64,000 bases of DNA from Aquimarina sp. ERC-38 (lineage in GTDB: Bacteria > Bacteroidota > Bacteroidia > Flavobacteriales > Flavobacteriaceae): contig NZ_CP098511.1 of the NCBI RefSeq assembly GCF_026222555.1, positions 2,213,501 to 2,277,500 on the forward strand, written 5' to 3'. The notes beneath the pieces are model-generated. The model ran no database searches. It saw nothing but the letters and a program-made list of their open reading frames with translations, and was not told the origin of the DNA. This document shows, one piece after another, positions 27,268 to 61,935 of this stretch (its first letter is position 1; each line of letters opens with the position of its first letter). The translations under genes were made by a program, and so were the position numbers.

Positions 27268-28229
27268 TTGCACCAGTAATAATATTTAGCTATCTTGATA
27301 ACAAAAGAGAAATGTATGAATATTTTGAAGTTCGTAGAATAGTTCCCTGACGAAAAATCCTGTCGTGACAACGTTGTAAAGGCTCGTAACGCCGAAGGCG
27401 TTGTGTGCAAGAGGTGCTATGGCAAGAAGCATTATTGGCTAAAGGGCAAATGGGCATGGCAGTGCTCAGCCTGTAACTTCAGGATCTCCCTGCGCAGCGG
27501 GACCATAATGGAGAACTCTAATCTTCCCGTTAGGACCTGGTATCTCGCGATGGCGTTCATGACCTATTCCAAAGAGGGGATCTCGGCCACGGAACTACAA
27601 AGACAGCTTGGCTACTCGAGGTACAATACCATTTGGTCGCTGATACACAGGATAAGGGGCGCCATGGGCAAGAGGGATGCGCTCTATGACTTGGAAAGGA
27701 TGATAGAATTCGATGAGGGATACTTTGAGAAGGCCACCAGTAAGGCAGAGCAAAAGAACCTGAAGCGTGGCAGGGGCAGCCAGAGACAGTCCAATGTGGC
27801 GGTCATGGCCGAATCGACAAAACTGGAAGACCCGAAATCGGGCAAGAAGGATAGCCAGTGCAGGTATTTCAAGATGCAGGTTCTGGGCTCGTATAATAAG
27901 GACGAGGTGAACCAACTGGTAAGAGAGAACATTGACGAACTGAGCATTGTCTTCAGTGACCAGAGTACAAGCTACGTGGACATATCCGATTATGTCGAAG
28001 TACACGTTACAGAGAGATCGGGCAGGGAGACCACGGTATCAACCCTAAAACAGGTGCATATCGCAATAAGCAATGCAAAGAGGACACTGCTGGGCATTTA
28101 CCACAAAATCGATGGCAAATATTTACAGAGCTATCTCGATGAGTTTTGCTATAAGCTCAACAGGAGGTATTTAGGGGAGCAGCTATTCGATAGACTAGTA
28201 GTAGCGGTAACTCATTAATACTGGTGCAA
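27268..28229 (+). mobile_element. IS1595-family (ISXO2-like) element inside the cluster
   Basis: Inverted ends TTGCACCAGTAATAAT and, from the right, TTGCACCAGTATTAAT enclose 962 bp between the halogenase and thioesterase genes. No flanking 8-bp duplication was found. Its GC content is visibly higher than the AT-rich genes on both sides, pointing to recent arrival. Confidence 0.82.
27316..28218 (+). pseudogene. ISXO2-like transposase with an in-frame amber codon
   Basis: The frame from ATG 27316 reads MNILKFVE, then TAG (27340-27342), then FPDEKSCRDNVVKARNAEGVVCKRC and on without interruption to 28218. A CAG to TAG change at codon 9 explains this. The remaining frame has the zinc ribbon (CKRC, CSAC), IEFDEGYFE with the first Asp, FSDQSTSYVD with the second, and YLDEFCYKLNRR with the last acidic residue. 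Internal re-initiation at a later start would lose part of the zinc ribbon. Confidence 0.83.
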
Positions 28230-32017: not shown

Positions 32018-33324
32018 CTAGTACTGATGCGTTAAGATTTATTAATCGAATAATTTTATTTGTTCATTGACATTTTGTTTTGAAATTGTTTTGGTAAGCA
32101 ATTCTTTTATTGGTGTTTTATCCATTGAGGATATGCCTAAGATTTGTATAATTTGATAAATGGATAATTCACTCTTTATAGAGTGTTTGACACGAGCTAT
32201 TATCAAGTATGTGCATATAGCCACCCATACGTGAGTGTTAACTGCATTTTCAGTATGTCCCCAAAAGCTTTTTTATAGTTAAGTTTTGCTTTATCCACTT
32301 AAAGAAGGTTTCTATTTGCCAGCGATTACGGTAGAGTTTTGCCACTTCAAGTGCTGACACCTCTATATTGTTGGTCAGAAATAGTAGTGTCGTATCGTTT
32401 TTCTTATCATAGTATTCTACTAATCTGAGAGGTTCTGGATATAGTTTTTTAGACTTATACCATTTAGAACTATTATTTTGTCGCTTCTAAGACCAGTTGT
32501 CTTATCGATATTAAAGTTTTCCTCTACGATGTCATAACTTATGTTTGACTTAGCTCTTGTGACAAAAAAAGCTTCACAAGTATTAATACGATAGAGCGCT
32601 TGGAAATCGACATAAGCTTTATCCATCAGGTAAATAGCATGAGGCACAGGAATTAACAAATCCAATATGTTACTGTCATGATATTTTCCATCACTTACTA
32701 GTATAAATGAAGGTATACTACCTCTGAGATCCAGTAATGTATGAATCTTTATAGCCCCTTTAGAATATTTTCCAGGAGCCCAATTAAATAACATAAGACT
32801 CAGAGAAATTGTAGTGGAATCTAGGGCAAAGACTTCATTGTCTAAGTTGACATTTGGTATTGGAGATGAATTATAAAGAGGTCGGACCTGATCAATAAGA
32901 TATTGTCCAAAATCTCCAAAAATCCGCCAATCTCTACGCTCATTTGCACGAGATAAAGAAGATTGGTTTACATACCCACTGAATCCAAGATGATATAATT
33001 TGCTTCTATGTGCTTTTAAACAAGTAGCTATATCTCTCAAAGAATTACGAGAAGTCAATTGACCAAAGAACAATTGGATGAATTGATTCCAGCAATTAAA
33101 ATTTCTGAATCTGTAATCTCCGTTGTACCTCTTTACGCATTTTTCAAACTCATACTTGTTTATAAATTGTAAAAGTTGTGCAAAGACATATTTTCCAGAG
33201 TTCATAACAGTTTTTAAACTGCTAAACTAAAAGCCATTTCAAATCAAAAAATCAAAGAACGTATATTAACCCTTATCATTAAAGGGGTTATTGAAAAAAT
33301 TAAAAAGTTAACGCATCACTAGTA
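32018..33324 (-). mobile_element. IS4-type insertion sequence, copy 2, inside the cluster
   Basis: The element is about 32025-33318 with inverted ends TGATGCGTTAAGATTT and, from the right, TGATGCGTTAACTTTT. The 6-bp repeat CTAGTA flanks it (32018-32023 and 33319-33324). It lies between the loading AT-ACP gene and the first PKS/NRPS gene, transcribed against them. Its ends differ from those of the copy at 22424, so the two are distinct IS types. Confidence 0.82.
32042..33205 (-). pseudogene. IS4-family transposase with two frameshifts
   Basis: ATG 33205 starts MNSGKYVFAQLLQF, collinear with the 22534 transposase. The frame holds through FALDSTTISLSLMLF and LMDKAYVDFQALY to about 32460, then shifts at an A-rich run (TCTAAAAAAC). 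The next frame gives YRNRWQIETFFKWIKQ, with the catalytic Glu, to about 32275. A second shift at AAAAAAGCTTTTGGGG restores FWGHTENAV and the C-terminus (VWVAICTYLIIARVKHS ... DKTPIKELL). Both shifts lie in homopolymers, so sequencing error or programmed slippage is not excluded. Confidence 0.8.
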
Positions 33325-45723: not shown

Positions 45724-48700
45724 ATGAATGTACTTAATAAGACTTTAGATATTCTAGATAGAGTAAAACAGTATGGAGCAAGTATTTTTCTTCAAGATGG
45801 AATCTTAAAAATCAAAAAAGAAATAGGTAAAAAACTGCCCAAAGCTATTATTGAAGAAATTAAAGAAAATAAAGAAGATATTATCTTGTTTCTACAAAAG
45901 TATAAGGTAACTTCTAATCTGCGTAATGTAGACGAACGTATTGTCAAACAAGAGAGTGCAACTAGTACTCTTTCTTATAATCAGGAACAGCTATGGTTCA
46001 TTGATGAACTACAAGGAAGTGCCCATTTTAATATGCCTATTTTATGTAAAATTAAAGGTACCATAGATAAGGACAAATTAGAAATGGCTATTAAAGATGT
46101 TTTAGATCGACATCAGATTTTAAGAACTATAATAAAAGGAGATTCACATAACATTCTTCAGAGTATCTTGTTAACAAATCATTGGAATCTTATATATTCT
46201 GAAATTATTGATGATAATCAGAAGTCTATTACAGTAGCAAATAATATAAAGCAAACCATAGAAAAACCGTTTGATTTATCTAACGATTATCTGCTTCGTG
46301 CACACTTGATCAAAGAAGGAGAAGAGCAGTATGTGTTGGTTATTGTAGTTCATCATATCGCTATTGATGGTCAATCAATTGAAATACTATATAATGAAAT
46401 AGTAGCATGTTATAATAATCATTTAAAAGAGAAAAAAAATTCTTTGCCTAAATTGGATATTCAATATAGTGATTTTGCAATATGGGAAAAAGAATATTTT
46501 TCTAATCAAGAAAATAAACAAAAAGCACTCGAGTATTGGAAAGAACAGCTTATAGAATATACTAATCTACAACTTCCTCTTAATAAAAAAAGGCCTGCTA
46601 TTCAAAGCTCAAAAGGGGCAGTAATATCTCTTAATATTAATAACGATATTTCTAATCAGATATATGAATATGCTTCGCAAGAAGGAGTAACTCCATACAT
46701 CTTTTTATTAGCAGTGTTTAAAGTATTAATGGCAAAATATTCAGGACAAAATGATATAGTAATTGGCAGTCCTTTTGCAAATAGAGGAAAAGAGCAGTTA
46801 CAAGGTTTGATAGGTTGTTTTACCAATACATTGCCAATACGATCCATATTAACGCCTAACATTTCTTTTAATAAATTTTTGAAAGAAGTTAAATCTCAAA
46901 TGTTACAGGCATATGACTATCAGAATACTCCTTTTTCTTTGATTGTCAAAGAAATGATAGAAGATAGGGATCTAAGTAGAACACCTATATTTCAGACATT
47001 ATTTACATATGAACCTAAAAAAGAAATTGTAAATACCAAAATAGGAACTGCAGATATTTTTCTTGAGGATATAGGGTATAATGTGTCTAAATATGACCTA
47101 GCTGCTAAATTTCTCGAAAAGGAAAACGAACTTATTTTAAGTTTGGAATATTGCAAAGATCTGTTCGAAGCATCTTTTATTAAGTCTATGGCTAGGCATT
47201 ATAAAGAATTAATAGTGTCAACCATTAAAGATGATAGCATACTGTTAGAAGCATTGCAAATGTTGCATGAAGATGAGAAGGCAGTTATACTAAAAGAATT
47301 TTCCAACAATGACATAAGCTATCAATTATCAGAAAAGACATTTTTAGATAAATTTAGAACACAATCAAAAGATAAGGGATCAAATATTTCATTGATTTTT
47401 GACGATAGAGCACTTACTTATGAGGAGTTAGATTTGATTTCTAATCAATTTGCCAATCAACTACGATCATATAAAATTGGTAAAGGAGATTTTATTCCTA
47501 TTTGTGTCAATCGTTCGATCGAAATGATTGTGGCGATCTTTGGGGTCTTAAAATCGGGAGCAGCATACGTTCCTGTTGACCCTAATGTACCCTTAAAAAG
47601 ATTAAGTTTTATCCTTTCAGATATGAACGCTTCTGTTTGTGTTATTCAAAAAGAAGTTGAAAAATTAGTCTTTAATGGAGATACGAATGTTGAGTGTATA
47701 TACATAGAAGATTTTTCTAAAAACCTTAAGAATTTTCCAAATCATAAAGTAGAAGAATCAATTACTCCAGAACAAACAGCATATATGATATATACATCTG
47801 GAAGTACTGGAATACCAAAAGGAGTAGAAATTAGTCATTCTTCATTATATATATATCTAAAATGTATGTCAGAAAAATATCAACTATTAGAAGTTGATAG
47901 ACTACTTTTTAAAACTAACTTTACATTTGATGTATCTATATACGAACTATTTGGTTGGGTCTTTACGGGTTCGGGGGTAGTGATTTATCCTTCTCAATTA
48001 CATAGAGAAGTAGAAAAGATGATTAACTATGCAAAAAAGTATGCGGTTACTCTGCTTCAGATGGTTCCATCTTTATTTGCTGTATTTATTGAGGTACTTG
48101 ATAGAGAAAAAATTGAATTACCACATCTAAAACATATTTTATTAGCAGGGGAAGCATTATCTCCTTCATTGGTAAAAAAGTATGAAAAACTAGAATTAAA
48201 TGCAAAGTTAGTCAATATTTATGGTCCTACAGAGGCTACTGTATACAGTAGTCAATATGAACTTAACCTGAGTAAATCAGACGTAAGTTATGTTCCTATA
48301 GGACGGCCGTTAAGAAATGTATCGTTATATATTGTTGATAAAAATTTATCCTTATTGCCTGTTGGAATAATCGGGGAATTATGTATTTCTGGTCCACAGG
48401 TTGCTAAAGGATATTGGAACAGAAGTGAATTAACAAAAGAAAAGTTTATTACAAATCCATTTATAGATATACCTAATCAAAAAATGTTTAGAACAGGAGA
48501 TTTGGTACGATGGCTTCCTGATGGTAATATACAATTTATCGGAAGAAAAGATTACCAAGTAAAGATAAGAGGATATCGTATAGAGCTTGAAGAAGTAGAA
48601 ACTCATTTAGAACAACTTTCTTGGATAGATAAAGCTGTTGCTTTGGCTATACCATTGGAAAATGGAACTAATAAATTATTGGCATATGTTCAAAGTAAAG

Positions 48701-51700
48701 AGAAAATAGATATTGTAAAAACTAAGAACTCTTTATATGAGGTGTTGCCAGAATATATGATTCCTGAATTCTTTGAAGAAATACAGGAATATCCTTTGTC
48801 TTCAAATGGTAAAATAGATCGAAAATCACTTACCAAGATAAATACGTCTTTTACTAATGACAGAGAATATATAGCTCCAAGAACAGCGCAGGAAAAACAA
48901 CTGTTAGAAATCTGGCAAGAAATTTTAATGATAGATACGATTAGTGTTAAGGATAATTTTTTTGCTTTAGGAGGGGATTCTATTATGGCAATCCAGATGG
49001 TTAGTAGAGCCAAAGAATATGGAATCTTTTTTATGGTAAAAGATGTATTGAGATATAGAACTATAGAGAGGATACTTCTAATTGCAAAAGAAGAAAATAA
49101 AGTTCTGACAGAGCAAGGAAAACTAGAGGGAGAATTTTCTTTAACACCGATACAGCATCTTTTCTTTAATCAACAAGGCGGAAGTAATCATTACAATCAA
49201 TCGATGTTGTTGGAGGTGGATAGAAAAATTTCATTTGATGTAATGAAAAAAGTAGTAGCCATACTCATAAATAAACATGACTCATTACGGCTATCGTTTA
49301 ATCTTAAAAAGAAACAAGGATGGTCTCAAAACTATATAAAAGATAAAGAAGCAATACTGTTTAAAGAAAGATGTAATTCTAAAAAAGAACTTTCTATAGT
49401 TTGTCAAAAATATCAAGAGAACTTAGATATTACTCAAGGAGAAATAGCAAAATTTGTTTGGATATCTATGCCAAATCATCTAAAAAATGATTTTTTATTT
49501 ATTGTAGTACATCATCTAGGTATAGATGGGGTTTCTTGGAGAATATTGTTTGAAAATATGATCGATAGTTTTAAAATAATTAATATAGAAAAAAAGAATT
49601 TAGATGATGCTATAAAGCAAACCTCCTTTAGACAATGGACTAATCGATTAATAGAGTATGCAGATGCACAGAAACTAAAAGCAGAATATGATTATTGGAT
49701 AAAAACTTTGTCTAATGTCTCAGCAATGCCTAAGGATTTTACAGAAACCGAAATAAAAACGTATAAGAATAAAATAGATTACAAATTTGGTTTTAGTAAA
49801 AAAGAAACGAAAGAGCTTTTGGGAAAAGCTAACTTGGCTTATGGCACCAGAATAAACGATATTCTTCTTAGTGCATTGACTTTAACACTTACTACTTGGT
49901 CCAATACACCTAAAGTAGTAATAGGTTTAGAAGGACATGGTAGAGAAGAACTTTTTGATGATATTGATGTTACAAAGACTACAGGATGGTTTACGTCATT
50001 ATATCCAGTTACACTATCGGTACCTGATGACTCTAATAATCTCGAATTACTTATTGCCAATACAAAAGATATGATTCGAAACATCCCAAATCAAGGAATT
50101 GGCTATGGGATACTTCGATATTTATCTGATGATCAAAAGGTTAAGTTAAATCTAGACATAGACTTCTCTTCTATTATTTTTAACTACCTAGGTGATTTTG
50201 ATACTTCCCTAGATAATCAGAATATGATAAAAATATCTCTTGAAGAAAGAGGTGAAGATATAGGGGTATACAATAAAAACCCCTACAGTATTACGATTAC
50301 AAGCTTGATTCTTGAACAAAAATTAAATTTTATTTGGAGTTTTGATAGTTCTGTATACAATAAAGAGACAAGTGAGTTTTTAATAAAATCTTTTAGTCAA
50401 AACCTAAAAAAAATAATAGTTCATTGCTGTAGTCGTCAACCTGTCAAAACACCTTCTGATTTTGGATTGCCTACTAGTATTTCTTTTAAATCTGTACAAA
50501 ATTTTATAAATGAGGATTTTCATTGCGATCAAGTAGTGGATATATATGAGCTTAGTTACCTCCAAAAAGGAATGTTATTTCATAATTTATTGGATAATAA
50601 TATGGGTGATTATATTATCCAAACAAAATTAGATTTTATACATGGCGTAGATGTAAATATTCTTGAAAAAAGTTGGGAAAAGATAATCAAACAGCATAGT
50701 GTATTAAGAACAGGAGTGTTTTCTGATTATTTTGATATACCCGTTCAATGTGTATATGCAAATATTAAAACCCCTTTAAAAGAAGTCTATTATAATGAGT
50801 TGCCGGAAGGAGATGATAAGATTGAAGCATTTATTTTACATGATCGATCTCTAGGATTTAATCTTAAAAACCCACCACTGTTTAGAATGTCACTTCTACA
50901 TCATGAAAACAGAGGATGTACTTTATTGATAACATATCATCATATTATTTTGGATGGTTGGTCCTTTTCCTTATTACTGAACTTATTTATGGATCAGTAT
51001 CAAAGCCTTAAGAATAATGAGTTTTTGATAGAGAAAAGAGAAGATGAATATGTAGACCTGATCAATCAGCACAAAAGCAAAGATATTTATGAATTAAAGA
51101 CATATTGGAAAAAGTATTTATCTCCAATTTCCTCTCCTTGTTACCTTCCATTTATAAAAAATACTGCCAAAAGAAATAGAGTCTTTGGGAATAGAGTACA
51201 TTTAATTACTCTTGATGAAGCATTAACAGTACGAATCAAAGATTTTGTAAAAAACAACTCCTTTACTATAAGTACATTTTTACAAGGAGCTTGGTCTTTT
51301 TTGTTGAGCCAATATACACATCAGGAATCTGTAGTTTTTGGGGTAACAATTTCAGGAAGAAATACGCTATTAGATAGAATAGAAGAGCGTGTAGGCTTAT
51401 ATATTAATACGATTCCTGTTGTAACGATTATTAGCCCAGAGAGGAACATTATAGAATGGCTTGAAGAATTGCAAATAGAGCATGCAAAAGGCCGTGAGGA
51501 GTTTGGATATATGTCATTGAGTGATATCCAATCATGTTCTTCCGTTCAAGGAGTATTATTTGATAATATTATAGTTTTTGAAAATTATCCATTAGAAGTT
51601 CTAGCATCTCATAAATTTAACGAACTTGATATTGCCAATATTGAAGGGAGAGGATATGGTAATTTTGCACTTAGTTTATCGGTATCAATTCTAGATAATT

Positions 51701-54700
51701 CATTTAAAATAGGATTTACATATAATGAAGAATTATTGGATCAAGCTATTATAGAGAGGATTTGTAAACATTTTGTATGTGTTTTTAATAATATGCTTTC
51801 AACAAGTAAAACTCTAGGAGAGTTATCTTATCTTCCAGAGTCTGAATACCATCAATTACTTTCATTTAACAAGACTTTTTTTGATTATGATCGCGGATGT
51901 AGTTTGATAGATAGTTTTTATGATATGGTTGTTTTATATTCTTCAAAGACCGCTTTGGTATTTAATGAAGAATCGATGACCTACCAGGAGTTATACGATC
52001 GTTCTAATCAACTGGCACATTGTCTTAAGTCCAAAGGAGCAAATCCTGGTGATAGGATAGGTTTGTTATCGTATCGAGGTTTGGATATGTTGGTAAGCAT
52101 TTTTGGAATTCTACAGACTGGCTGTGTGTACGTTCCTTTGCATGCTGAATATCCTTCACAGCGATTATCCTATATTTTAGAAGATGCTGGAGTTAAGCAA
52201 TTGGTGTGTACCGATATGGATTTATTATCAGCAAAAGGGATATCAGGACTTTATGATATAGTTTCTTTTTCTGATCTATCAGAGTGCCCAGATACTCCTA
52301 TCGATGTTCTATTATGTCATGATTCTTTGGCATATTTGATGTACACTTCTGGTAGTACAGGTGTTCCTAAGGGCGTTAAGGTGACCCATGGTAATATTCA
52401 GAAGTTGGTAAATGATCAAGGCGCAATAGGGGTGAGATCATCAGATGTTGTCTTGCAGTGGTCAAACTATGCTTTTGATGGTTCAGTTTATGAGATTTTC
52501 AGTTGTTTATTAAGCGGAGCTACGTTGCATTTGATAAATAAGGAAGAAGCTTCGAGTGCTATTGCTGTATCAAAGCTTTTGGTTGAGCGTTCTATTAGTG
52601 TTTGTTTTTTGACCACGGCTTTGTTTAATGCATTGGTCGATTATGATGTATCAAGTTTGTCTGGAGTTCGCAGAGTATTGTTTGGAGGGGAGTTGGTGTC
52701 ACCGAGTCATGTATCTCGTGCTCTCGAAGTTATGGTTCCAGGTAATTTGGTTCATGTTTATGGTCCAACAGAAACGGTTGTTTATGCTACGAGTCATCAG
52801 ATTTATGCTATAGAAGGGGATTGTGTTCCTATTGGTTCCCCATTGAGCAATACACAGATTTATATCGTTAATGATAATTTTCAGTTATGTGGATTAGGAG
52901 TTAGCGGAGAGATTTGTATAGGTGGTGAAGGTGTTTCTAAGGGGTATTTGAATAAAGATGATGTAACGTCATCACATTTTGTAAAGAACCCTTTTGGCTC
53001 AGGATTTTTATATTGTACAGGAGATTTAGGTCGCTGGTTAGAAGATGGTAGCATAGATTTTATAGGTCGTAGGGATAGTCAGGTAAAGATACGTGGCTAT
53101 CGAATCGAGTTGGGCGAGGTAGAGAGTGCATTACAATCACTACCCATGGTTGATCGTGCTATTGTCATATCAGATTCAGCCCCTGGTGGAGGTAAGCGTT
53201 TGATAGGTTATGTTGTTGGCGGGTCAGATTTTAATAAGGGTTTGCTTGATTCACAGCTAGTGAATATGTTGCCAGAGTATATGATTCCTTCGTTTATCAT
53301 AGTTTTAGATTCGTTTCCACTAACCCCCAATGGTAAGATAGATCGTAAATCATTGCCAGAACCAGGAAGAGATCAGGATCGATCATTAGATATAAAACAA
53401 GGAGCGTATACCAGTATAGAAAGACAGCTGATCCCTATATGGAAAGAGGTGTTAAAGGTAGATGGTATTGAACCGCAGGATAATTTTTTTGATCTCGGAG
53501 GACACTCTATTCTTGCAACACAATTAGTAAATAAAATAAGGAATGTTTTTACCGTAGATATAGAGATAAAGGATGTATTTATACACGATACTATAGCCAC
53601 ATTGGCTAATTTTATTTCTATTGAATCTAATAAAACAATACATATATTAATTGAAATCTGGAAGGATATTCTAAAATTAGAAGATATAAGTATTCATGAC
53701 GAATTCTTCGATTTGGGAGGACATTCTATACTTGCAACACAAATGGTTACTGTAGTTAGAAACACTTTTAAAATTGATATAGAAATTGAAGATATATTTA
53801 TTTATGATACCATTTTTCAGTTAGCAGAATTTATAAATACATCACCAAATGATGTTCAGAAAAGAGTAGCCGAAATCTGGAAAGAGATATTAAAAATTAA
53901 TACGATTAATATCCATGAAGAATTTTTTGATTTGGGAGGACATTCAATTTTGGCAACACAAGTTGTTACTAAAGTTAGAAAAGAATTCGAAATAGATATA
54001 GAATTAAAAGACGTATTCGTTCACGATACTATAGCTGAATTTTCTCATTTTATTGAAGACCAGAAGTCAAAAAGTACACTTCCTAAAATTACCGTTCAAG
54101 AAAGGCCAGAACACATTCCACTCTCCTATGCACAAGAGCGATTGTGGTTCATCGATAAGATGAATGGAAGTACACACTATCATATTCCTGCAATAATGCA
54201 GCTTAAAGGAACATTAAAAATAAATATTTTAGAAGATTCTGTAAATATAATTATTAATAGACATCAACCACTTCGAACAGTATTTTATGAATATGAAAGA
54301 GACTACTATCAAAAAGTAATGCTCAAAAATAAATGGAAGATTCAAATAGTTAAAAATATAGAAGAAGAGCAAGTGCCACAAATTATTAATCAAACACTTA
54401 ATCAACCTTTTAATTTATCACAAGATCATATGCTAAGGGGGCTTGTCATTGAGAAAACAAAAGGAGATTATGTTTTGATATTTATATTCCACCATATTGC
54501 AGGAGATAGTAAGTTACTCATTTTCTTTGAAGAACTTACCAAGATATATAATGCAAAACTAAAGGGGGAGTCTTCATATAACTTACAAGAATTACCAATT
54601 CAATATATAGATTATGCAATTTGGCAAAAAAAGTATCTCCGAGGAAAAATAATGACTGAAAAGTTATCTTATTGGAAAGATAAACTGCAAGGAATTTCCC

Positions 54701-57700
54701 CTTTGGAGTTGCCAACAGATTTTCCTAGGCGACAATATCAAAGTACGCATGGAGAAACTGCCCAAATAACCATACCCAAAAATATACAAAAGCAATTGAC
54801 AAAACTTTCAAAAGAAGAAGATGTTACTTTATTTACACTAATGTTAGCAGCTTTCAAAGTATTGTTATATAGATATAGTGGTCAAAAAGAAATAGTTGTA
54901 GGAACCCCGGTAGCAAATCGAACTGTTGCCGAAGTAGAAAATCTAATTGGTTTTTTTGTAAATGCTTTGGTTTTAAGGAGTAATATAGAAGAGAATAGTT
55001 TATTTACAGAGTTACTGCAGCAAGTAAAAGAAAACACTTTATCCGCTTATCAATATCAGGATGTTCCCTTTGAAAGAGTCGTAGAAAATATAGATATAGA
55101 AAGAGACGAAAGTAGAACTCCGATTTTTCAAATAATGTTTACCCTTCAGAATAATAAAAAACAAGAAGAGTTTACTTTGGGAAATACAACAATTGAACCT
55201 CATAAATACGATTATAAGATTTCAAAATATGATCTTACATTTACGATTATAGAAAATAACGAAAATCTTCAATTGCATATAGAATACTGCTCTGATTTGT
55301 TTATGTCAGAAACAATAGAAAACATGGGAAACCATTATGTAACACTTTTGAAGGCTATTATTTCTGATAAAAATACGAAAATCAATAAATTGAACTTATT
55401 AAGTGATGAAGAAAAGAATACCTTATTATCATTAGCAATTGCACCAAAGATTAAAATCCCGAAAGAAGTTTCCATATTTCAGTTATTTAATAATAAAGTA
55501 GTAGAATATCCTAATAAGATAGCACTACGCTTAGGTGAATCTTCAATTACATATCAAGAACTGTGGGAACGATCTAATCAATTGGCAAATTGTTTAATAG
55601 AAAAAGGAGTATCTGTATCAGAACATGTAGGAATTTTGATGGAGAGAGGTATGGATATGATTATTTCAATTTTTGGAGTGCTCCAATGTGGAGCAGTATA
55701 TGTACCCTTACATACCGATTATCCAGCAAAAAGAATAAAATATATATTGAATGATGCCAAAATTTCTAAGGTTATTACAAATGATAAGCAACTCATTAAT
55801 CAAAAAGAGGTGTTGATTCATGAATGTATTGATATTGTAGAGAGTATGGAATATATTAAGAAACCAATTGCTATAGATTACATAGAAAACGAATTGGCTT
55901 ACATAATGTATACTTCTGGAACCACAGGAAAGCCCAAAGGAGTATGTGTTACTCATAAAAATGTAATAAAATTAGTTTATGATCAAGGAGACATCGCGGT
56001 AGATTCAAATGATAACGTATTACAATGGTCTAATTTTGCTTTCGATGGATCGGTTTATGAAATATTTAGTGCTTTATTAAAAGGGGCTACTTTACATCTT
56101 ATAGAAGAGAATCAAGCATCAGATGCAGCTCAGTTATCAGAGGTTATTTCTAATCAAAAAATTACAATAAGTTTTATGACCACGGCTTTGTTTAATGCAG
56201 TAGTAGATTATGATGTAATATCCTTAAAAAAAGTAAGAAAACTTTTATTTGGAGGAGAATCAGTTTCTGTACCTCATGCCAGAAAAGCATTAAATGTAAT
56301 CGGGCCTAATATTCTAATTCATGTTTATGGACCTACTGAAACAGTCGTATTTGCAACATTTCATACTATAAACGAAATTAATAATGAGAAAGTGCCGATA
56401 GGAAAACCTTTATCCAATACCAGTGCACATATTGTGGACGAACAAGGACAAGTATGTCCCATAGGCATAGTTGGTGAGTTATTGATTGGAGGGGATGGCG
56501 TTTCTTCTGGATATTTGGGTAAACCAGCGCTAACAGAAGAAAAATTTGTGGATAACATTTTGAACCTAGAAGATCTAGGAAAATTATATAGAACAGGAGA
56601 TTTGGTGAAAAGACTACCTAATGGAGATATTAATTTTATAGGTCGTAAAGATAATCAGGTAAAAATTAGAGGGTATCGAATTGAACTGGGAGAAATAGAA
56701 GAAAAATTAGAAGAAATAAAGGAGATTGAAAAAGCTGTGGTTCTGGTAGATAAAAGTAAACAGACGTCTAAAAGGTTAATAGCATATGTAATATCAAATA
56801 AAAACTTTGATAAATTGGAGAGCGTCAAAAAAATGAAAGAAAAGCTTCCAGATTATATGATTCCCAAAATTTATGTAGAGATGGATGTTTTTCCACTTAA
56901 TACTAATGGGAAAATAGATAAAGCAAAATTTCCAAAACCACAGGAGGAAGCATTCATTACTCAAAAGTATATAGCTCCAAGAAATGATATGGAGAAAAGT
57001 TTACATGAAATTTGGAGTAAGATATTAAATATTGACAAAATAGGAGTGCAAGATAATTTCTTTGAACTGGGTGGCTATTCTATTCTTGCGACTAGATTGA
57101 CTTCTACGATAAGAGACGAATTGCAGATTGATATTACTATCAAAAGTGTTTTCGCCCATTGTAATATAGAAGAATTGGCAAGATATATGGGTTCATTGCA
57201 AAACCAGACAATTGACAAAATTAAGAAAACGCATAAAGTAGAAAAAGTAGCACTATCTTTTTCACAAGAACGATTATGGTTTATAGATCAATTAGAAGGA
57301 AGTGTTCAATATCATATGCCCTTTATCTTTAACGTCTGTGGTAACCTCGATGTTAACATACTTGAACAGTCTTTTAAACGATTAATATTGAGACATGAGA
57401 TACTAAGAACTATTATAAAAGAAGAAGCAGGTATACGATGGCAAGAAATCAGAGATATTGATCAATTTAGATTGGAGCGTATCACATTAGAGGTACATAG
57501 TGATGAAGTAACTTCTTATATACAGCAGTGTATAATCCAACCTTTTGATCTCAGCGAGGATTACATGATCAGAGTAAAGATTATAGGTACCTCTGATCAA
57601 AAATATACCTTATTTATGATGTTGCATCACATTGTATCAGATGGTTGGTCAATGCCTATATTATTTGAAGAATTAAGTCTATTATATCAAACACATCAGC

Positions 57701-60700
57701 AAGAACAAGAAACTTGTTTACAACCACTCGAAATACAATATGCAGATTACAGTGCATGGCAACAAGAGAGTTTGAGTGGTGAGAAATTGAATAGAAAGTT
57801 GACATATTGGACCAAAAAACTAGCAGGAGTACTACCATTAGAATTACCTACTGATTATACAAGGCCTCCTGTTCAGAGTATTAAAGGATCACAATACACT
57901 TTTTCAATAAGTAAAGAAGTAACAGAAAAATTATATAGTATTTCTAAGATTATGAATGCTAGCCTTTTTATGACATTACTAGCATCATACAAGTTGTTTT
58001 TATATCGATATTCTGGTCAGAAAGATATATGTGTAGGTACCCCCGTAGCCAATAGAGGTCACAAGGAAATAGAACCACTAATAGGATTCTTTATTAATAC
58101 ACTTGCATTGCGATCTCAGATTGATAAAGAATCAGATTTCATATCATTTTTAGAAACAATAAAACATGAAACTCTAGAAGCATTTGAACATGAAGATATT
58201 CCTTTTGAAAAAATAGTAGAGAAGGTAGTTCGTGAAAGAGATCAAAGCAGACCACCCTTATTTCAGACGATGTTTAGCCTTCAGAACATAAAGCAAATCT
58301 CTAATACGATTCATATGGGGGACATCATTTTGGAACTAGAACCATTCCATTTTGATATTGCAAAATACGACCTATCTTTTACAGCCGTGGAGTCAAATGA
58401 TCAATTAGATATAGCAATCGAATATTGTACAGATCTGTATAAGGAGTCTACCATTAAAAGAATGGCAAAACATTACACCAATCTCTTAACTGAAATTGCC
58501 AATAACCCAAATAAAAATATAAATACCTATCAATTACTATCTCAGGAAGAAGAAGAGAAAATAATAGTTGATTTTAATCAAACAATTCAGGAATTTCCTA
58601 AAAATGAAACTATTATAGGTTTGTTTCAAAAACAGGTCGAAGAAAATCCTGATAAAGAGGCTATAATTTTTGAAGATACAAGAGTGACTTTTCTAGAGTT
58701 TAATAATCAGGTATGTTCTTATGCGGCCTATCTTAACCAAAAAGAAGGTATTAATCCAAAGGATAAAGTACTGGTTACCATACCACATCATCAAGATCTT
58801 TTGGCAATCTTATTAGCAATAAAACAAATAGGAGCCATATATATACCTCTTGATCCAGATACAACTAAAGACATGATTACCTATGTTCAGAATGACAGTC
58901 AATGTAGTCTGGTTATACAACAGGAATTTGTTGATTTAATGAATGAAGAAGTGAAGAAAAATGAGTATCTCTGGCAGCAACAGCAGTCAGAAGATAGCGA
59001 TTTTATTATATATACTTCTGGATCTACTGGAAAACCAAAAGGGGTATTATTAAAAGCATCAAATGTGTTGAATAGAATGCATTGGATGTGGGAAAATTAT
59101 GCATTTAAAACAGAAGAGCGATGTTGTGCAAAAACATCTATAAGCTTTGTAGATCATATATGGGAATTGTTTGGACCAATTCTTAAAGGAATTCCTTTGG
59201 TGTTTTATAATAAAGAGCAAATACTAGATATACCAGAGTTTATTGTAAGTCTAGAAAAAGAGAAGGTATCTAGGATTGTTTTAGTTCCTTCGTTACTTAA
59301 GGCATTGCTAGAATATCCAGAACTGTGCAAGAAAAAGCTAAGAGACCTTTGTCTGTGGATTTGTAGTGGAGAAACATTAAAGAAAAGCCTAGTAGAGCAA
59401 TTTTATGCTACTGTACAAAATAAAGAAGCACACCTTCTTAATATATATGGATCTTCTGAAGTGGCTGCGGATGCTACATACTTTGATACATATAAACTAT
59501 TTAATACATATAAAGAACTTCGATTTAGTCTATTCGAAGACTCTATAGAGAAACGGATAGAAGAATTGATTTATAAATACGATAATAAACAAAAAATAAC
59601 ATCTAGTTCATTTTCAGAGATTTTAAAAAATAAAACATTCTCCGATGTCTCTCTAGAATCTCAAGTATCTTTAACTGGATATACAGAATTTATAGAAACC
59701 ATTGTATCTGGAGAGGTACCCAATATTTCAAGTCGAACATATATAGGTCATATGACTGGACCGATACCAAAATTATTTAGAGAGTTAGGAGCTTTGTTAA
59801 CGACTATGAATCAAAATCAGGTAAAAATTGAAACGTCGATGGCGGCCTCTCTTATAGAAAGACAAGTCATTGGTAAATTTCATAATTTGGTGTACAAAAA
59901 AAATACTGATTTCTATAGTACACATGTTCAGAATGCAGATACTTGTCTAGGGATTTGTACTAATGGCGGAACCATATCTAATATTTCTGCTTTGAGTTAT
60001 GCCCTAAATTATGCATTTAGACCTAAAGGTGATTTTAAAGGAATTGTAGAAGAAGGGTTAATACATGCTTTACACTATTATGAATATAAAAAAGTAGTTA
60101 TTCTAGGATCTTCTTGGTGTCATTATTCTATTCAGAAAACGCTAAAGCTTTTAGGATTAGGAAAACAATCTTTTATTGAAGTGGACTTCTCAAATAAAAC
60201 AAAGCCTGAACTAGAAAAGGTATTAAAACAGAAAATAGAAGAGTTGAGTAGTCAGGGTGTATATATCTTATCAATTATAGGAGTAGCAGGAACCACAGAG
60301 GGAGGTAATATTGAACCTTTGGTAACATTAGGTTCTATTGCTTTAGATCATAATATACATTTTCATGTAGATGCGGCATATGGTGGAGCGGCATTAATGG
60401 ATGACCATTTGAGTGCTAAGTTAAGCGGTATAGAGTTGGCAGATTCAGTTACCATTTGCGCTCATAAACAATTATATCTTCCAATAGGAGCTAGCTTAGT
60501 ACTATTTAAAGATCCTGAGTTGGCAACTTTTTCAGAAAACAATACGCAATATCAAGCAAGGAAAGGGAGTTATGACCTAGGCAAATTTACGATAGAAGGA
60601 TCTCGAAGTTTTATGAGTTTTATGCTTCATGCAACATTAAATATCTATGGTAAAGAAGGATTTGCAGAAGTAATACGGCACAATTACGAGAATGCTCAAA

Positions 60701-61935
60701 AATTTGCAAAATGTATAGACGAACATCCTTCTTTTGAATTGTGGACTATGCCAGATCTTACTATAGTATTGTATCGATATATTCCTAAAAAGTTAAGAGG
60801 GAAATCTAAATTAACTACAGATGAATTGATCACCGTAAATGAATTGAACCAAAAGATTCAAAAAGAACAGTTTGCCCAAGGAAATACATTTGTATCCTAC
60901 ACCAACCTAAGACAATCAATAACACAAGAATGGATTACCGTATTCAGAGCAGTATTCATGAATCCATATTCTACAGAAAAAGAATTTCTAGAAGTATTAA
61001 AAGATCAAGAAAAAATAGCATTACAATTACAGCAGATAGATTATAAAGAGATTAATATTTCTAAAAGTGAACAAAGAGTAATATCAATAGGAAAGCCTAT
61101 TAGTAATGTAAATATTTATATTTTAGATGAAAACCTAAATATTACACCAATTGGTGTTTCTGGTGAAATTTATGTTTCAGGAGAAGGGGTAGCCTCAGGA
61201 TATATCAATCTACCAACTCAAACAAGTGAATGTTTTATTAAAAGTCCATTTAATAAGGATCAAAAACTCTTTAAAACAGGGGATATAGCTCGGTGGCTTG
61301 ATGATGGAAATATCGATTTTGTAGGAAGAGCTGATCATCAGGTCAAAATACGAGGATATCGAATAGAACTTCAGGAAATAGAAAATCAATTAGAACAATT
61401 ATCACAGGTTGTTAAGGCTTTGGTTGCCGTTAAAGAAGATCAGGAGAATGATAAAAAATTGATTGCATACCTAATTATAAAGGAACCTATAGATAAAACA
61501 GTAGTACGAGCATCTTTAAAAGAAGTATTGCCAGAATATATGATTCCTGCTGCTTTTGTGATTCTGGATGAATTTCCATTAGCATCAAACGGAAAAATTA
61601 ATAGAATACTCCTGCCAGATCCAGAGGTATTAGACTTTATTCAAGAAGAATATGTAATGCCTTCAACAGGAAATGAAATAGTTTTAGAAACAATTTGGAA
61701 AACACTATTAGAAATCAAAACTATAGGAATTCATGATAATTTTTTCATTATTGGTGGACATTCTCTTTTAGCAACAAGATTGATTTCAAAACTCAAAAGT
61801 GAATATGGGATAGGAATTCCTATAAAAACGATTTTCAATTACCCTACCATACATGAATTGGCCAAGTTCTTAGATATTCTTGGAAATAAAGAAGATGATG
61901 AAGAAAGTAAAGAACTAGAAACTACTTTTTTCTAA
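45724..61935 (+). CDS. Four-module NRPS with PLP decarboxylase embedded in its last A domain
   Basis: 5403 residues. A TubC-type docking domain (1-60) is followed by C (HHIAIDG 210-216), A (pocket D-V-Y-Q-L-A-I-V-Y, unassigned), PCP (Ser1086, LGGDS) and E (HHLGIDG 1263-1269, NYLGDF). Next come C (HHIILDG 1739-1745), A (D-G-Y-F-L-G-V-V-Y, Ile-like) and three PCPs (Ser2595, 2668, 2741). Next: C (HHIAGDS 2923-2929, last Gly is Ser), A (D-G-Y-F-L-G-V-V-F, Ile-like), PCP (Ser3786, LGGYS). Last: C (HHIVSDG 3968-3974), A (V-D-W-V-I-S-I-A-D, beta-alanine-like) and PCP (Ser5347). The last A domain is split after A5 (YGSSEVAAD) by a ~515-residue PanP-like domain. The acidic C-tail (NKEDDEESKELETTFF) could meet the TubC domain of the next protein. 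No termination domain, so the chain passes on. Confidence 0.93.
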   Translation: MNVLNKTLDILDRVKQYGASIFLQDGILKIKKEIGKKLPKAIIEEIKENKEDIILFLQKYKVTSNLRNVDERIVKQESATSTLSYNQEQLWFIDELQGSAHFNMPILCKIKGTIDKDKLEMAIKDVLDRHQILRTIIKGDSHNILQSILLTNHWNLIYSEIIDDNQKSITVANNIKQTIEKPFDLSNDYLLRAHLIKEGEEQYVLVIVVHHIAIDGQSIEILYNEIVACYNNHLKEKKNSLPKLDIQYSDFAIWEKEYFSNQENKQKALEYWKEQLIEYTNLQLPLNKKRPAIQSSKGAVISLNINNDISNQIYEYASQEGVTPYIFLLAVFKVLMAKYSGQNDIVIGSPFANRGKEQLQGLIGCFTNTLPIRSILTPNISFNKFLKEVKSQMLQAYDYQNTPFSLIVKEMIEDRDLSRTPIFQTLFTYEPKKEIVNTKIGTADIFLEDIGYNVSKYDLAAKFLEKENELILSLEYCKDLFEASFIKSMARHYKELIVSTIKDDSILLEALQMLHEDEKAVILKEFSNNDISYQLSEKTFLDKFRTQSKDKGSNISLIFDDRALTYEELDLISNQFANQLRSYKIGKGDFIPICVNRSIEMIVAIFGVLKSGAAYVPVDPNVPLKRLSFILSDMNASVCVIQKEVEKLVFNGDTNVECIYIEDFSKNLKNFPNHKVEESITPEQTAYMIYTSGSTGIPKGVEISHSSLYIYLKCMSEKYQLLEVDRLLFKTNFTFDVSIYELFGWVFTGSGVVIYPSQLHREVEKMINYAKKYAVTLLQMVPSLFAVFIEVLDREKIELPHLKHILLAGEALSPSLVKKYEKLELNAKLVNIYGPTEATVYSSQYELNLSKSDVSYVPIGRPLRNVSLYIVDKNLSLLPVGIIGELCISGPQVAKGYWNRSELTKEKFITNPFIDIPNQKMFRTGDLVRWLPDGNIQFIGRKDYQVKIRGYRIELEEVETHLEQLSWIDKAVALAIPLENGTNKLLAYVQSKEKIDIVKTKNSLYEVLPEYMIPEFFEEIQEYPLSSNGKIDRKSLTKINTSFTNDREYIAPRTAQEKQLLEIWQEILMIDTISVKDNFFALGGDSIMAIQMVSRAKEYGIFFMVKDVLRYRTIERILLIAKEENKVLTEQGKLEGEFSLTPIQHLFFNQQGGSNHYNQSMLLEVDRKISFDVMKKVVAILINKHDSLRLSFNLKKKQGWSQNYIKDKEAILFKERCNSKKELSIVCQKYQENLDITQGEIAKFVWISMPNHLKNDFLFIVVHHLGIDGVSWRILFENMIDSFKIINIEKKNLDDAIKQTSFRQWTNRLIEYADAQKLKAEYDYWIKTLSNVSAMPKDFTETEIKTYKNKIDYKFGFSKKETKELLGKANLAYGTRINDILLSALTLTLTTWSNTPKVVIGLEGHGREELFDDIDVTKTTGWFTSLYPVTLSVPDDSNNLELLIANTKDMIRNIPNQGIGYGILRYLSDDQKVKLNLDIDFSSIIFNYLGDFDTSLDNQNMIKISLEERGEDIGVYNKNPYSITITSLILEQKLNFIWSFDSSVYNKETSEFLIKSFSQNLKKIIVHCCSRQPVKTPSDFGLPTSISFKSVQNFINEDFHCDQVVDIYELSYLQKGMLFHNLLDNNMGDYIIQTKLDFIHGVDVNILEKSWEKIIKQHSVLRTGVFSDYFDIPVQCVYANIKTPLKEVYYNELPEGDDKIEAFILHDRSLGFNLKNPPLFRMSLLHHENRGCTLLITYHHIILDGWSFSLLLNLFMDQYQSLKNNEFLIEKREDEYVDLINQHKSKDIYELKTYWKKYLSPISSPCYLPFIKNTAKRNRVFGNRVHLITLDEALTVRIKDFVKNNSFTISTFLQGAWSFLLSQYTHQESVVFGVTISGRNTLLDRIEERVGLYINTIPVVTIISPERNIIEWLEELQIEHAKGREEFGYMSLSDIQSCSSVQGVLFDNIIVFENYPLEVLASHKFNELDIANIEGRGYGNFALSLSVSILDNSFKIGFTYNEELLDQAIIERICKHFVCVFNNMLSTSKTLGELSYLPESEYHQLLSFNKTFFDYDRGCSLIDSFYDMVVLYSSKTALVFNEESMTYQELYDRSNQLAHCLKSKGANPGDRIGLLSYRGLDMLVSIFGILQTGCVYVPLHAEYPSQRLSYILEDAGVKQLVCTDMDLLSAKGISGLYDIVSFSDLSECPDTPIDVLLCHDSLAYLMYTSGSTGVPKGVKVTHGNIQKLVNDQGAIGVRSSDVVLQWSNYAFDGSVYEIFSCLLSGATLHLINKEEASSAIAVSKLLVERSISVCFLTTALFNALVDYDVSSLSGVRRVLFGGELVSPSHVSRALEVMVPGNLVHVYGPTETVVYATSHQIYAIEGDCVPIGSPLSNTQIYIVNDNFQLCGLGVSGEICIGGEGVSKGYLNKDDVTSSHFVKNPFGSGFLYCTGDLGRWLEDGSIDFIGRRDSQVKIRGYRIELGEVESALQSLPMVDRAIVISDSAPGGGKRLIGYVVGGSDFNKGLLDSQLVNMLPEYMIPSFIIVLDSFPLTPNGKIDRKSLPEPGRDQDRSLDIKQGAYTSIERQLIPIWKEVLKVDGIEPQDNFFDLGGHSILATQLVNKIRNVFTVDIEIKDVFIHDTIATLANFISIESNKTIHILIEIWKDILKLEDISIHDEFFDLGGHSILATQMVTVVRNTFKIDIEIEDIFIYDTIFQLAEFINTSPNDVQKRVAEIWKEILKINTINIHEEFFDLGGHSILATQVVTKVRKEFEIDIELKDVFVHDTIAEFSHFIEDQKSKSTLPKITVQERPEHIPLSYAQERLWFIDKMNGSTHYHIPAIMQLKGTLKINILEDSVNIIINRHQPLRTVFYEYERDYYQKVMLKNKWKIQIVKNIEEEQVPQIINQTLNQPFNLSQDHMLRGLVIEKTKGDYVLIFIFHHIAGDSKLLIFFEELTKIYNAKLKGESSYNLQELPIQYIDYAIWQKKYLRGKIMTEKLSYWKDKLQGISPLELPTDFPRRQYQSTHGETAQITIPKNIQKQLTKLSKEEDVTLFTLMLAAFKVLLYRYSGQKEIVVGTPVANRTVAEVENLIGFFVNALVLRSNIEENSLFTELLQQVKENTLSAYQYQDVPFERVVENIDIERDESRTPIFQIMFTLQNNKKQEEFTLGNTTIEPHKYDYKISKYDLTFTIIENNENLQLHIEYCSDLFMSETIENMGNHYVTLLKAIISDKNTKINKLNLLSDEEKNTLLSLAIAPKIKIPKEVSIFQLFNNKVVEYPNKIALRLGESSITYQELWERSNQLANCLIEKGVSVSEHVGILMERGMDMIISIFGVLQCGAVYVPLHTDYPAKRIKYILNDAKISKVITNDKQLINQKEVLIHECIDIVESMEYIKKPIAIDYIENELAYIMYTSGTTGKPKGVCVTHKNVIKLVYDQGDIAVDSNDNVLQWSNFAFDGSVYEIFSALLKGATLHLIEENQASDAAQLSEVISNQKITISFMTTALFNAVVDYDVISLKKVRKLLFGGESVSVPHARKALNVIGPNILIHVYGPTETVVFATFHTINEINNEKVPIGKPLSNTSAHIVDEQGQVCPIGIVGELLIGGDGVSSGYLGKPALTEEKFVDNILNLEDLGKLYRTGDLVKRLPNGDINFIGRKDNQVKIRGYRIELGEIEEKLEEIKEIEKAVVLVDKSKQTSKRLIAYVISNKNFDKLESVKKMKEKLPDYMIPKIYVEMDVFPLNTNGKIDKAKFPKPQEEAFITQKYIAPRNDMEKSLHEIWSKILNIDKIGVQDNFFELGGYSILATRLTSTIRDELQIDITIKSVFAHCNIEELARYMGSLQNQTIDKIKKTHKVEKVALSFSQERLWFIDQLEGSVQYHMPFIFNVCGNLDVNILEQSFKRLILRHEILRTIIKEEAGIRWQEIRDIDQFRLERITLEVHSDEVTSYIQQCIIQPFDLSEDYMIRVKIIGTSDQKYTLFMMLHHIVSDGWSMPILFEELSLLYQTHQQEQETCLQPLEIQYADYSAWQQESLSGEKLNRKLTYWTKKLAGVLPLELPTDYTRPPVQSIKGSQYTFSISKEVTEKLYSISKIMNASLFMTLLASYKLFLYRYSGQKDICVGTPVANRGHKEIEPLIGFFINTLALRSQIDKESDFISFLETIKHETLEAFEHEDIPFEKIVEKVVRERDQSRPPLFQTMFSLQNIKQISNTIHMGDIILELEPFHFDIAKYDLSFTAVESNDQLDIAIEYCTDLYKESTIKRMAKHYTNLLTEIANNPNKNINTYQLLSQEEEEKIIVDFNQTIQEFPKNETIIGLFQKQVEENPDKEAIIFEDTRVTFLEFNNQVCSYAAYLNQKEGINPKDKVLVTIPHHQDLLAILLAIKQIGAIYIPLDPDTTKDMITYVQNDSQCSLVIQQEFVDLMNEEVKKNEYLWQQQQSEDSDFIIYTSGSTGKPKGVLLKASNVLNRMHWMWENYAFKTEERCCAKTSISFVDHIWELFGPILKGIPLVFYNKEQILDIPEFIVSLEKEKVSRIVLVPSLLKALLEYPELCKKKLRDLCLWICSGETLKKSLVEQFYATVQNKEAHLLNIYGSSEVAADATYFDTYKLFNTYKELRFSLFEDSIEKRIEELIYKYDNKQKITSSSFSEILKNKTFSDVSLESQVSLTGYTEFIETIVSGEVPNISSRTYIGHMTGPIPKLFRELGALLTTMNQNQVKIETSMAASLIERQVIGKFHNLVYKKNTDFYSTHVQNADTCLGICTNGGTISNISALSYALNYAFRPKGDFKGIVEEGLIHALHYYEYKKVVILGSSWCHYSIQKTLKLLGLGKQSFIEVDFSNKTKPELEKVLKQKIEELSSQGVYILSIIGVAGTTEGGNIEPLVTLGSIALDHNIHFHVDAAYGGAALMDDHLSAKLSGIELADSVTICAHKQLYLPIGASLVLFKDPELATFSENNTQYQARKGSYDLGKFTIEGSRSFMSFMLHATLNIYGKEGFAEVIRHNYENAQKFAKCIDEHPSFELWTMPDLTIVLYRYIPKKLRGKSKLTTDELITVNELNQKIQKEQFAQGNTFVSYTNLRQSITQEWITVFRAVFMNPYSTEKEFLEVLKDQEKIALQLQQIDYKEINISKSEQRVISIGKPISNVNIYILDENLNITPIGVSGEIYVSGEGVASGYINLPTQTSECFIKSPFNKDQKLFKTGDIARWLDDGNIDFVGRADHQVKIRGYRIELQEIENQLEQLSQVVKALVAVKEDQENDKKLIAYLIIKEPIDKTVVRASLKEVLPEYMIPAAFVILDEFPLASNGKINRILLPDPEVLDFIQEEYVMPSTGNEIVLETIWKTLLEIKTIGIHDNFFIIGGHSLLATRLISKLKSEYGIGIPIKTIFNYPTIHELAKFLDILGNKEDDEESKELETTFF
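51870..53385 (+). other. Module-2 A-domain segment with atypical codon use
   Basis: Within the large NRPS gene, this ~1.5-kb stretch covering one A domain uses CGT/CGC for Arg, TTG for Leu and G/T-rich codons far more than its surroundings, which favour AGA, TTA and AAA. The shift starts near the C/A border and ends just before the PCP array. Judged by eye only. Confidence 0.5.
53425..54065 (+). repeat. Three tandem divergent PCP domains
   Basis: Carrier-protein serines lie at residues 2595, 2668 and 2741, 73 residues apart, each in F-F-D-L-G-G-H-S-I-L-A-T-Q. The protein motifs match but the DNA has diverged well beyond the array at 41701-42391, so this is an older triplication. It follows an Ile-like A domain and precedes a C domain. 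Confidence 0.9.
59490..61060 (+). other. Embedded PanP-like PLP-dependent aspartate 1-decarboxylase domain
   Basis: Residues ~4590-5112 of the large NRPS form a complete group II decarboxylase. Conserved blocks, in order, are YIGHMTGPIP, NQNQVKIETS, ERQVIGKFHNLVY, TNGGTISNISAL, GVAGTTEGGNI, HVDAAYGG (Asp4883, pyridine-N contact) and DSVTICAHKQLYLPIGASL (Lys4915, Schiff-base lysine). A C-terminal segment EGSRSFMSFMLHATL follows. The pattern follows PanP (aspartate to beta-alanine plus CO2) more closely than glutamate or DOPA decarboxylases, notably H-K-Q-L-Y and G-A-G/S-L-V-x-F-K-D-P. All key PLP residues are present. A-domain sequence resumes at S-I-G-K-P-I-S-N-V-N-I-Y (motif A6), so both parts look functional. 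Confidence 0.9.

Follow-up and report, generated by a model that had tools for sequence, protein, structure and literature searches.

The window analysed here is a 64,000-nucleotide stretch of Aquimarina sp. ERC-38 (contig NZ_CP098511.1, positions 2,213,501 to 2,277,500), whose genome is one 4.43-Mb contig. It carries a nonribosomal peptide synthetase (NRPS) gene in which the fourth adenylation (A) domain is interrupted by a PanP-like decarboxylase of the group II, pyridoxal 5'-phosphate (PLP) type. The features in question are as follows; positions are those of the window, and the roles given to the three PLP-site residues are those usual in the family.

45724..61935, + strand: NRPS gene, 5403 aa, four A domains, the fourth interrupted; a 16.2-kb open reading frame (ORF) without internal stop
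58000..58563, + strand: condensation (C) domain of the same module, C-terminal part (scanned part only); Pfam PF00668
58585..59487, + strand: A domain, N-terminal part, motifs A1-A5, ending in ...NIYGSSEVAADATYFD; AMP-binding, 1.3e-64; model aligned to solved A domains
59149..59154, + strand: codons of pocket residues Val235-Asp236 (GrsA numbering), in SFVDHIW
59488..61077, + strand: inserted block, 530 codons, between A5 and A6; from alignment and junction inspection
59539..61017, + strand: PanP-like group II PLP decarboxylase; profile positions 25-522 of 522
60121..60123, + strand: His4800, presumed PLP-stacking histidine, in SSWCHYS; conserved 85/85
60370..60372, + strand: Asp4883, presumed PLP pyridine-N aspartate, in HVDAAYGG; conserved 85/85
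60466..60468, + strand: Lys4915, presumed PLP Schiff-base lysine, in AHKQLY; conserved 85/85
61078..61614, + strand: A domain, C-terminal part, SIGKPISN and motifs A6-A10, with Lys517 in NGKIN; AMP-binding_C, alignment and model
61684..61872, + strand: carrier (T/PCP) domain, predicted to be loaded by the split A domain; PF00550, 2.2e-13

The last module of the 5403-aa NRPS reads C-A(N)-[PanP-like]-A(C)-T in one open frame. Within residues 4093-5403 (P0001) the Pfam order is AMP-binding (209-494), Pyridoxal_deC (599-927, 6.7e-42), AMP-binding_C (1126-1199), and PP-binding (1229-1291). The insert starts after ...YGSSEVAADATYFD of motif A5, and on its right side VISIGKPISN leads into A6.

An earlier reading of the letters (the "first-pass annotation") had placed a full-length decarboxylase inside an A domain, at A5/A6 and in one polypeptide. 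The Pfam and NCBIfam scans, together with the ORF, bear this out for a block of ~530 residues, and the coordinates then given, 59490-61060, fall within a few codons of the 59488-61077 found here. The PLP lysine is Lys4915, as it had said, counting from the start of AHKQLY at residue 4913 (HVDAAYGG starts at residue 4881). A domain search and a structure prediction, both of which it had proposed as checks, put Pyridoxal_deC between the two A halves and gave a model in which the A domain closes across the insert and can be aligned to solved A domains. This is an interrupted A domain in the usual sense, since a catalytic domain splits it in frame and the A fold is kept in the predicted model. An ordinary fusion beside, rather than inside, the A domain was rejected on the basis of the flanking A halves and the closing of the model.

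The junctions are genuine. The congener G399 (one 6.01-Mb contig) has a stop-free 5489-aa frame in which the insert is 76.1% identical to that of the window and the flanking A halves are 75.7% and 76.0% identical. Because the insert also stands in this second single-contig genome, an assembly artefact, the possibility that the first-pass annotation had itself raised, is ruled out. Rough NG86 estimates of dN/dS against G399 are 0.111 for the insert and 0.051 and 0.117 for the flanks, with dS above 1 and saturated.

What, then, is the insert? It matches the NCBIfam PanP model (TIGR03799) over profile positions 25-522 of 522, with an E value of 9.5e-140 and 466.4 bits (469.5 in a second scan), and among the decarboxylase profiles listed that of PanP leads by a wide margin (466 bits vs 122 for diaminobutyrate decarboxylase). 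Both marks of a PanP, full-length coverage and the PLP-site residues, are present: none of the 85 embedded domains, window included, departs from the PLP His-Asp-Lys set, the FRxVxxNP arginine, or the loop tyrosine. The residue three before the PLP Lys is Cys in all 85, and in 41 free relatives it is Asp (23) or Cys (18); this Cys is a possible marker of specificity or of history. A model of the insert aligns with GAD65 from model residue 3 onward, GAD65 being matched from residue 95. The other Pyridoxal_deC gene of the genome (C1:4112635) reaches only 169 bits against the PanP model and was rejected as a second PanP.

The pocket of the split A domain reads VDWVISIADK in the alignment, with GrsA positions placed by motif and by reference to GrsA, and agrees with the code that the first-pass annotation had read by eye. 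It equals, at 9 of 10 positions, the beta-alanine code VDWVISLADK. With Asp at 236, not 235, and a code this close to that for beta-alanine, we class the domain as putatively of the beta-alanine type. None of the 85 interrupted domains has Asp at residue 235 (V 81, A 2, I 2); D236 and S301 are each found in 84, and D331 and K517 in all 85. Family members differ at positions 239, 278, and 299 (mainly W/A, V/T, and I/T/F). As a control we used the remaining A domains of these proteins and of the NRPS genes in the window, 76 in number and 72 readable at both positions. Here D235 stands in 68/72, VD in 3, and TD in 1; one of the 4 unreadable domains has D236. The question of whether A domains split in this way always carry a beta-type pocket had been posed at the outset, and across the 85 sequences, none with Asp235 and 84 with D236, insert and pocket are strictly linked. 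In ordinary A domains the alpha-amino group is bound by Asp235 (review PMC11355689, available sections), and the shift of Asp to 236 would suit a beta-amino acid.

The arrangement recurs well beyond the window. Two protein searches keyed to the insert gave 96 homologues besides the window's own, with A halves on both sides in 84, on one side in 4, and on neither in 8. The arrangement is therefore not due to chance. These searches accept only certain protein lengths and so favour fused forms; one of the lists used in sampling homologues held 120 of 1164 entries, and junctions were inspected residue by residue in 29 of the 85 sequences. A scan of named genomes (one genome per species, 80 loci kept of 108 relatives, flanks of ≤10 kb per locus) gave 25 embedded and 55 stand-alone domains. 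The 25 are spread over Bacteroidota (11), Cyanobacteriota (7), Pseudomonadota (2), Fibrobacterota (2), Cloacimonadota (1), and unassigned phylum (2). Three of 37 genomes of the window's genus, its own included, have a match at E ≤1e-60, the other two being 76% identical in the 5489-aa frame and 40% identical in a 1591-aa frame. Among 395 genomes of the window's phylum, scanned for the family, 7 reach E ≤1e-60, and only the window's genome exceeds 228 bits.

Distances between inserts and those between A domains are strongly correlated (r 0.85, with 0 of 2000 permutations as high). In the full A-domain tree, which holds 158 of 161 domains after 3 short ones were dropped, the beta-type set requires 2 changes. 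It forms one clade (SH-aLRT, the Shimodaira-Hasegawa-like approximate likelihood ratio test, 99) in a thinned tree of 80 rows. It is important to note how these rows were chosen: the set was thinned after the first tree, with 40 of the 85 interrupted rows picked by hand and 37 uninterrupted ones sampled at random plus three VD ones, and 6 of 12 long-branch rows were dropped, 2 of them interrupted (P0085, P0091).

Taken together, the frame, the insertion point, the PLP residues, the closing A domain, and the Asp236 pocket are the grounds from which we infer the substrates of both sites and the order of the reactions. The insert probably converts aspartate to beta-alanine, which the surrounding A domain would load. 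In a first step the embedded PanP-like decarboxylase would turn aspartate into free beta-alanine beside its consumer; the surrounding A domain would then adenylate it, and it would finally be thiolated onto the neighbouring carrier domain. Through its insert the synthetase may gain independence from the pantothenate pool. In their free form, enzymes of this fold type occur as dimers or tetramers whose active site lies where the subunits meet (Milano et al. 2013, PMC3870968, cited here and below from excerpts), and we therefore predict that the insert would bring about dimerisation of the NRPS subunit.

More tentatively, one may picture widespread "self-supplying" A domains in which pocket and enzyme are one evolutionary unit across several phyla, the decarboxylase dimer joins two megasynthases, the PLP site passes its beta-alanine on to the A pocket, and the unit has in places split again into a free decarboxylase beside an A domain. 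We regard this whole picture as possible rather than likely.

Several points weigh against aspartate decarboxylation in cis. The activity, product, and substrate of the window protein are predictions from sequence and model, and PanP-like enzymes might decarboxylate relatives of aspartate. The curated equivalog cut-off for PanP is 606.1 bits, which the insert, at 466.4, does not reach; it is for this reason called PanP-like and not a certified PanP. One interrupted domain (P0074) lacks D236 and another (P0091) is very divergent. The string VDWVISLADK was not found in a search of the open-access literature, and the available portions of the Kasichelin, PARAS, Khayatt, and cahuitamycin papers gave no beta-alanine code for comparison. 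The genome has an ordinary PanD (C1:1570311-1570652), so that beta-alanine should be available without the insert; the idea that the insert replaces a missing PanD was rejected on the same ground. Within the ≤10 kb of flank, a beta-type A domain neighbours the free PanP at only 2 of the 55 stand-alone loci, and only 9 of 55 show any A-like match. One locus (L023) does have NRPS genes beside its free PanP, and the readable codes there are of the alpha type.

The decarboxylase tree (87 embedded domains and 35 representatives of 119 free relatives) also speaks against it. There is no single embedded clade, and embedded rows require 8 changes. Holding the 40 embedded rows together was rejected (p 1.1e-9), as was holding them together with 8 nested free ones (p-AU, from the approximately unbiased test, 0.0007), those 8 having been named after the tree was seen. 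As the inserts are not one clade even with the nested free ones, it must be allowed that the insert was captured or replaced more than once, or that some free PanPs derive from embedded ones.

Cases in which insert and A domain are uncoupled deserve attention. In P0027 there is a VDAVFSLAD domain without insert; its A5-A6 linker resembles both insert ends of the protein's own second such domain and looks like the excision scar of a lost insert. P0033 and P0037 each combine an interrupted VD-type domain with an uninterrupted one. Chitinophaga sp. YR573 (L024) has an NRPS frame with an uninterrupted VDWVTSIAD domain, followed after ~1 kb by a free PanP frame; a further frame lies between the two. 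At L043 a free PanP, taken as a stop-to-stop frame, overlaps the last part of a frame encoding an IDTTTSIGD domain. P0099 (601 aa) is a stand-alone PanP with a weak N-terminal match to the TubC docking domain (21.9 bits, cut-off 26) and may be a form that acts in trans by docking to an NRPS. In Crocosphaera, free PanPs (P0112; L025, L047) start with residues resembling the left junction of the insert.

As a separate observation, Mastigocoleus and Plectonema (L027 17185-21306, L032 10162-14268) have an uninterrupted A domain reading VDWVISLAN or VDWIISLAN near an interrupted one, with Asn at 331; it is perhaps a second beta-amino-acid position.

A free beta-alanine intermediate agrees better with the uncoupled forms than does a strictly tethered route, in which aspartate would be loaded through its beta-carboxylate and the insert would then remove the alpha-carboxylate of beta-aspartyl-S-carrier to give beta-alanyl-S-carrier. 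Chemically such a route is feasible, since it would leave the alpha-carboxylate free; inserted methyltransferases work on residues already loaded (PMC11355689, available sections), and Milano et al. 2013 speculate on decarboxylation of a phosphopantetheine-tethered amino acid (PMC3870968). However, the pocket VDWVISIADK has two acids and Lys517 as its sole base, which suggests no obvious binder for an extra carboxylate, and the same type of code occurs in uninterrupted domains. Moreover, the argument of Milano et al., in the excerpts available, is the loss of an N-terminal helical domain, whereas the window's profile match begins at position 25 and its model residue 3 aligns with residue 95 of GAD65. 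We think the tethered order unlikely.

Equally improbable, to our minds, is the same design with another substrate, in which 3-methylaspartate, a diamino acid, or glutamate is decarboxylated and the matching beta- or omega-amino acid loaded. The variability of pocket positions 239, 278, and 299 would leave room for this, solved relatives include lysine, diaminobutyrate, and glutamate decarboxylases, and the Cys before the PLP Lys sets the embedded domains (85/85) apart from the free ones (18/41, with 23 Asp). Against it stand the wide lead of PanP over the other profiles listed and a window code one position off the beta-alanine code. That the insert has no catalytic role and persists as a structural or regulatory relic, with beta-alanine coming from the cell's PanD, is very unlikely: PanD is present and the A domain of P0027 has apparently lost its insert yet keeps a beta-type code, but the catalytic residues are invariant in 85/85 and dN/dS between the congeners is low.

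If cis supply of beta-alanine is right, a PanP-like insert in an A domain would point to beta-alanine at the corresponding position of an uncharacterised peptide, which is useful for genome mining. A-domain insertions would extend beyond tailoring to substrate supply, a function would be suggested for the JamL insert discussed below, and the A5/A6 site would be on offer to NRPS engineers. It also becomes testable whether joining a building-block enzyme to its consumer means channelling, or only linked expression and inheritance.

The surroundings of the gene are biosynthetic. Upstream of the 5403-aa NRPS lie genes for a PhyH oxygenase, a thioesterase, a methyltransferase, and an acyltransferase-carrier protein; beyond the window the cluster continues with a 1119-aa NRPS, a 4108-aa NRPS in which a NAD_binding_4 (reductase) domain lies close to the end, and a protein of 712 aa that contains a class III aminotransferase domain. 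Within the 5403-aa NRPS, three tandem carrier-domain motifs (FFDLGGHSILATQ), spaced 73 residues apart, follow the second A domain (~53485-54003, residues 2588-2760). Transposase genes of the IS1595 type (27403-28218, + strand) and of the DUF4372/DDE_Tnp_1 type (32420-33205, - strand) lie between and beside the biosynthetic genes, and two minus-strand ORFs are of nearly equal length (3400-7161, 1253 aa; 9183-12929, 1248 aa).

Jamaicamide contains beta-alanine. A subunit of its synthase in Lyngbya majuscula, JamL (Q6E7J8), is one of two NRPS/PKS (polyketide synthase) proteins with Pyridoxal_deC domains reported by Milano et al. 2013 (PMC3870968), and the one that has this domain inside an A domain. 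Its layout is given in the excerpts as ...C-HxxPF-A-PLP4-A-CP, where PLP4 is the embedded Pyridoxal_deC, of a function unclarified in 2013. The first-pass annotation had known of no earlier account of an A domain that contains an amino-acid decarboxylase; given JamL, this claim to novelty fails. Among the matches listed in the open-access literature we found no report of such an insert other than Milano et al. 2013, and none in the available portions of the janustatin, ocean-microbiome, and recombination papers. Nor did those matches hold the extent of the family, its PanP-like identity, the A5/A6 site, or the lock-step with the pocket.

Compared by published layout only, and as far as the excerpts go, JamL and the window protein both have Pyridoxal_deC between two A parts and then a carrier domain; JamL is a cyanobacterial PKS-NRPS subunit and the window protein a multimodular NRPS. 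One of our homologues (P0035) has the JamL-like order, from ketosynthase to A-PanP-A. In other interrupted A domains, with methyltransferase, oxidase, or ketoreductase inserts (e.g., TioS, 5wmm), methyltransferases modify the loaded residue according to the available sections, whereas the window insert is predicted to make the substrate. Insertion sites described in the parts available of sources such as PMC11355689 are mostly a8/a9, also a2/a3 and a4/a5; the A5/A6 site of the window is none of these, the site being usual rather than defining. In the bacillamide system a decarboxylase likewise serves an NRPS pathway, but as a separate protein in trans (PMC8795117, available text), whereas that of the window lies inside the A domain. 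With PanP itself, the aspartate 1-decarboxylase of Vibrio and others, the insert is homologous over its full length, 38-49% identical to 41 free relatives, and has the same PLP residues; unlike free PanP it is embedded, scores below the curated cut-off, and has Cys before the PLP Lys (free: 23 Asp, 18 Cys of 41). The arrangement is thus already known in kind from JamL, for which an earlier functional proposal may exist; what is new is how large the family is and how strictly insert and pocket go together.
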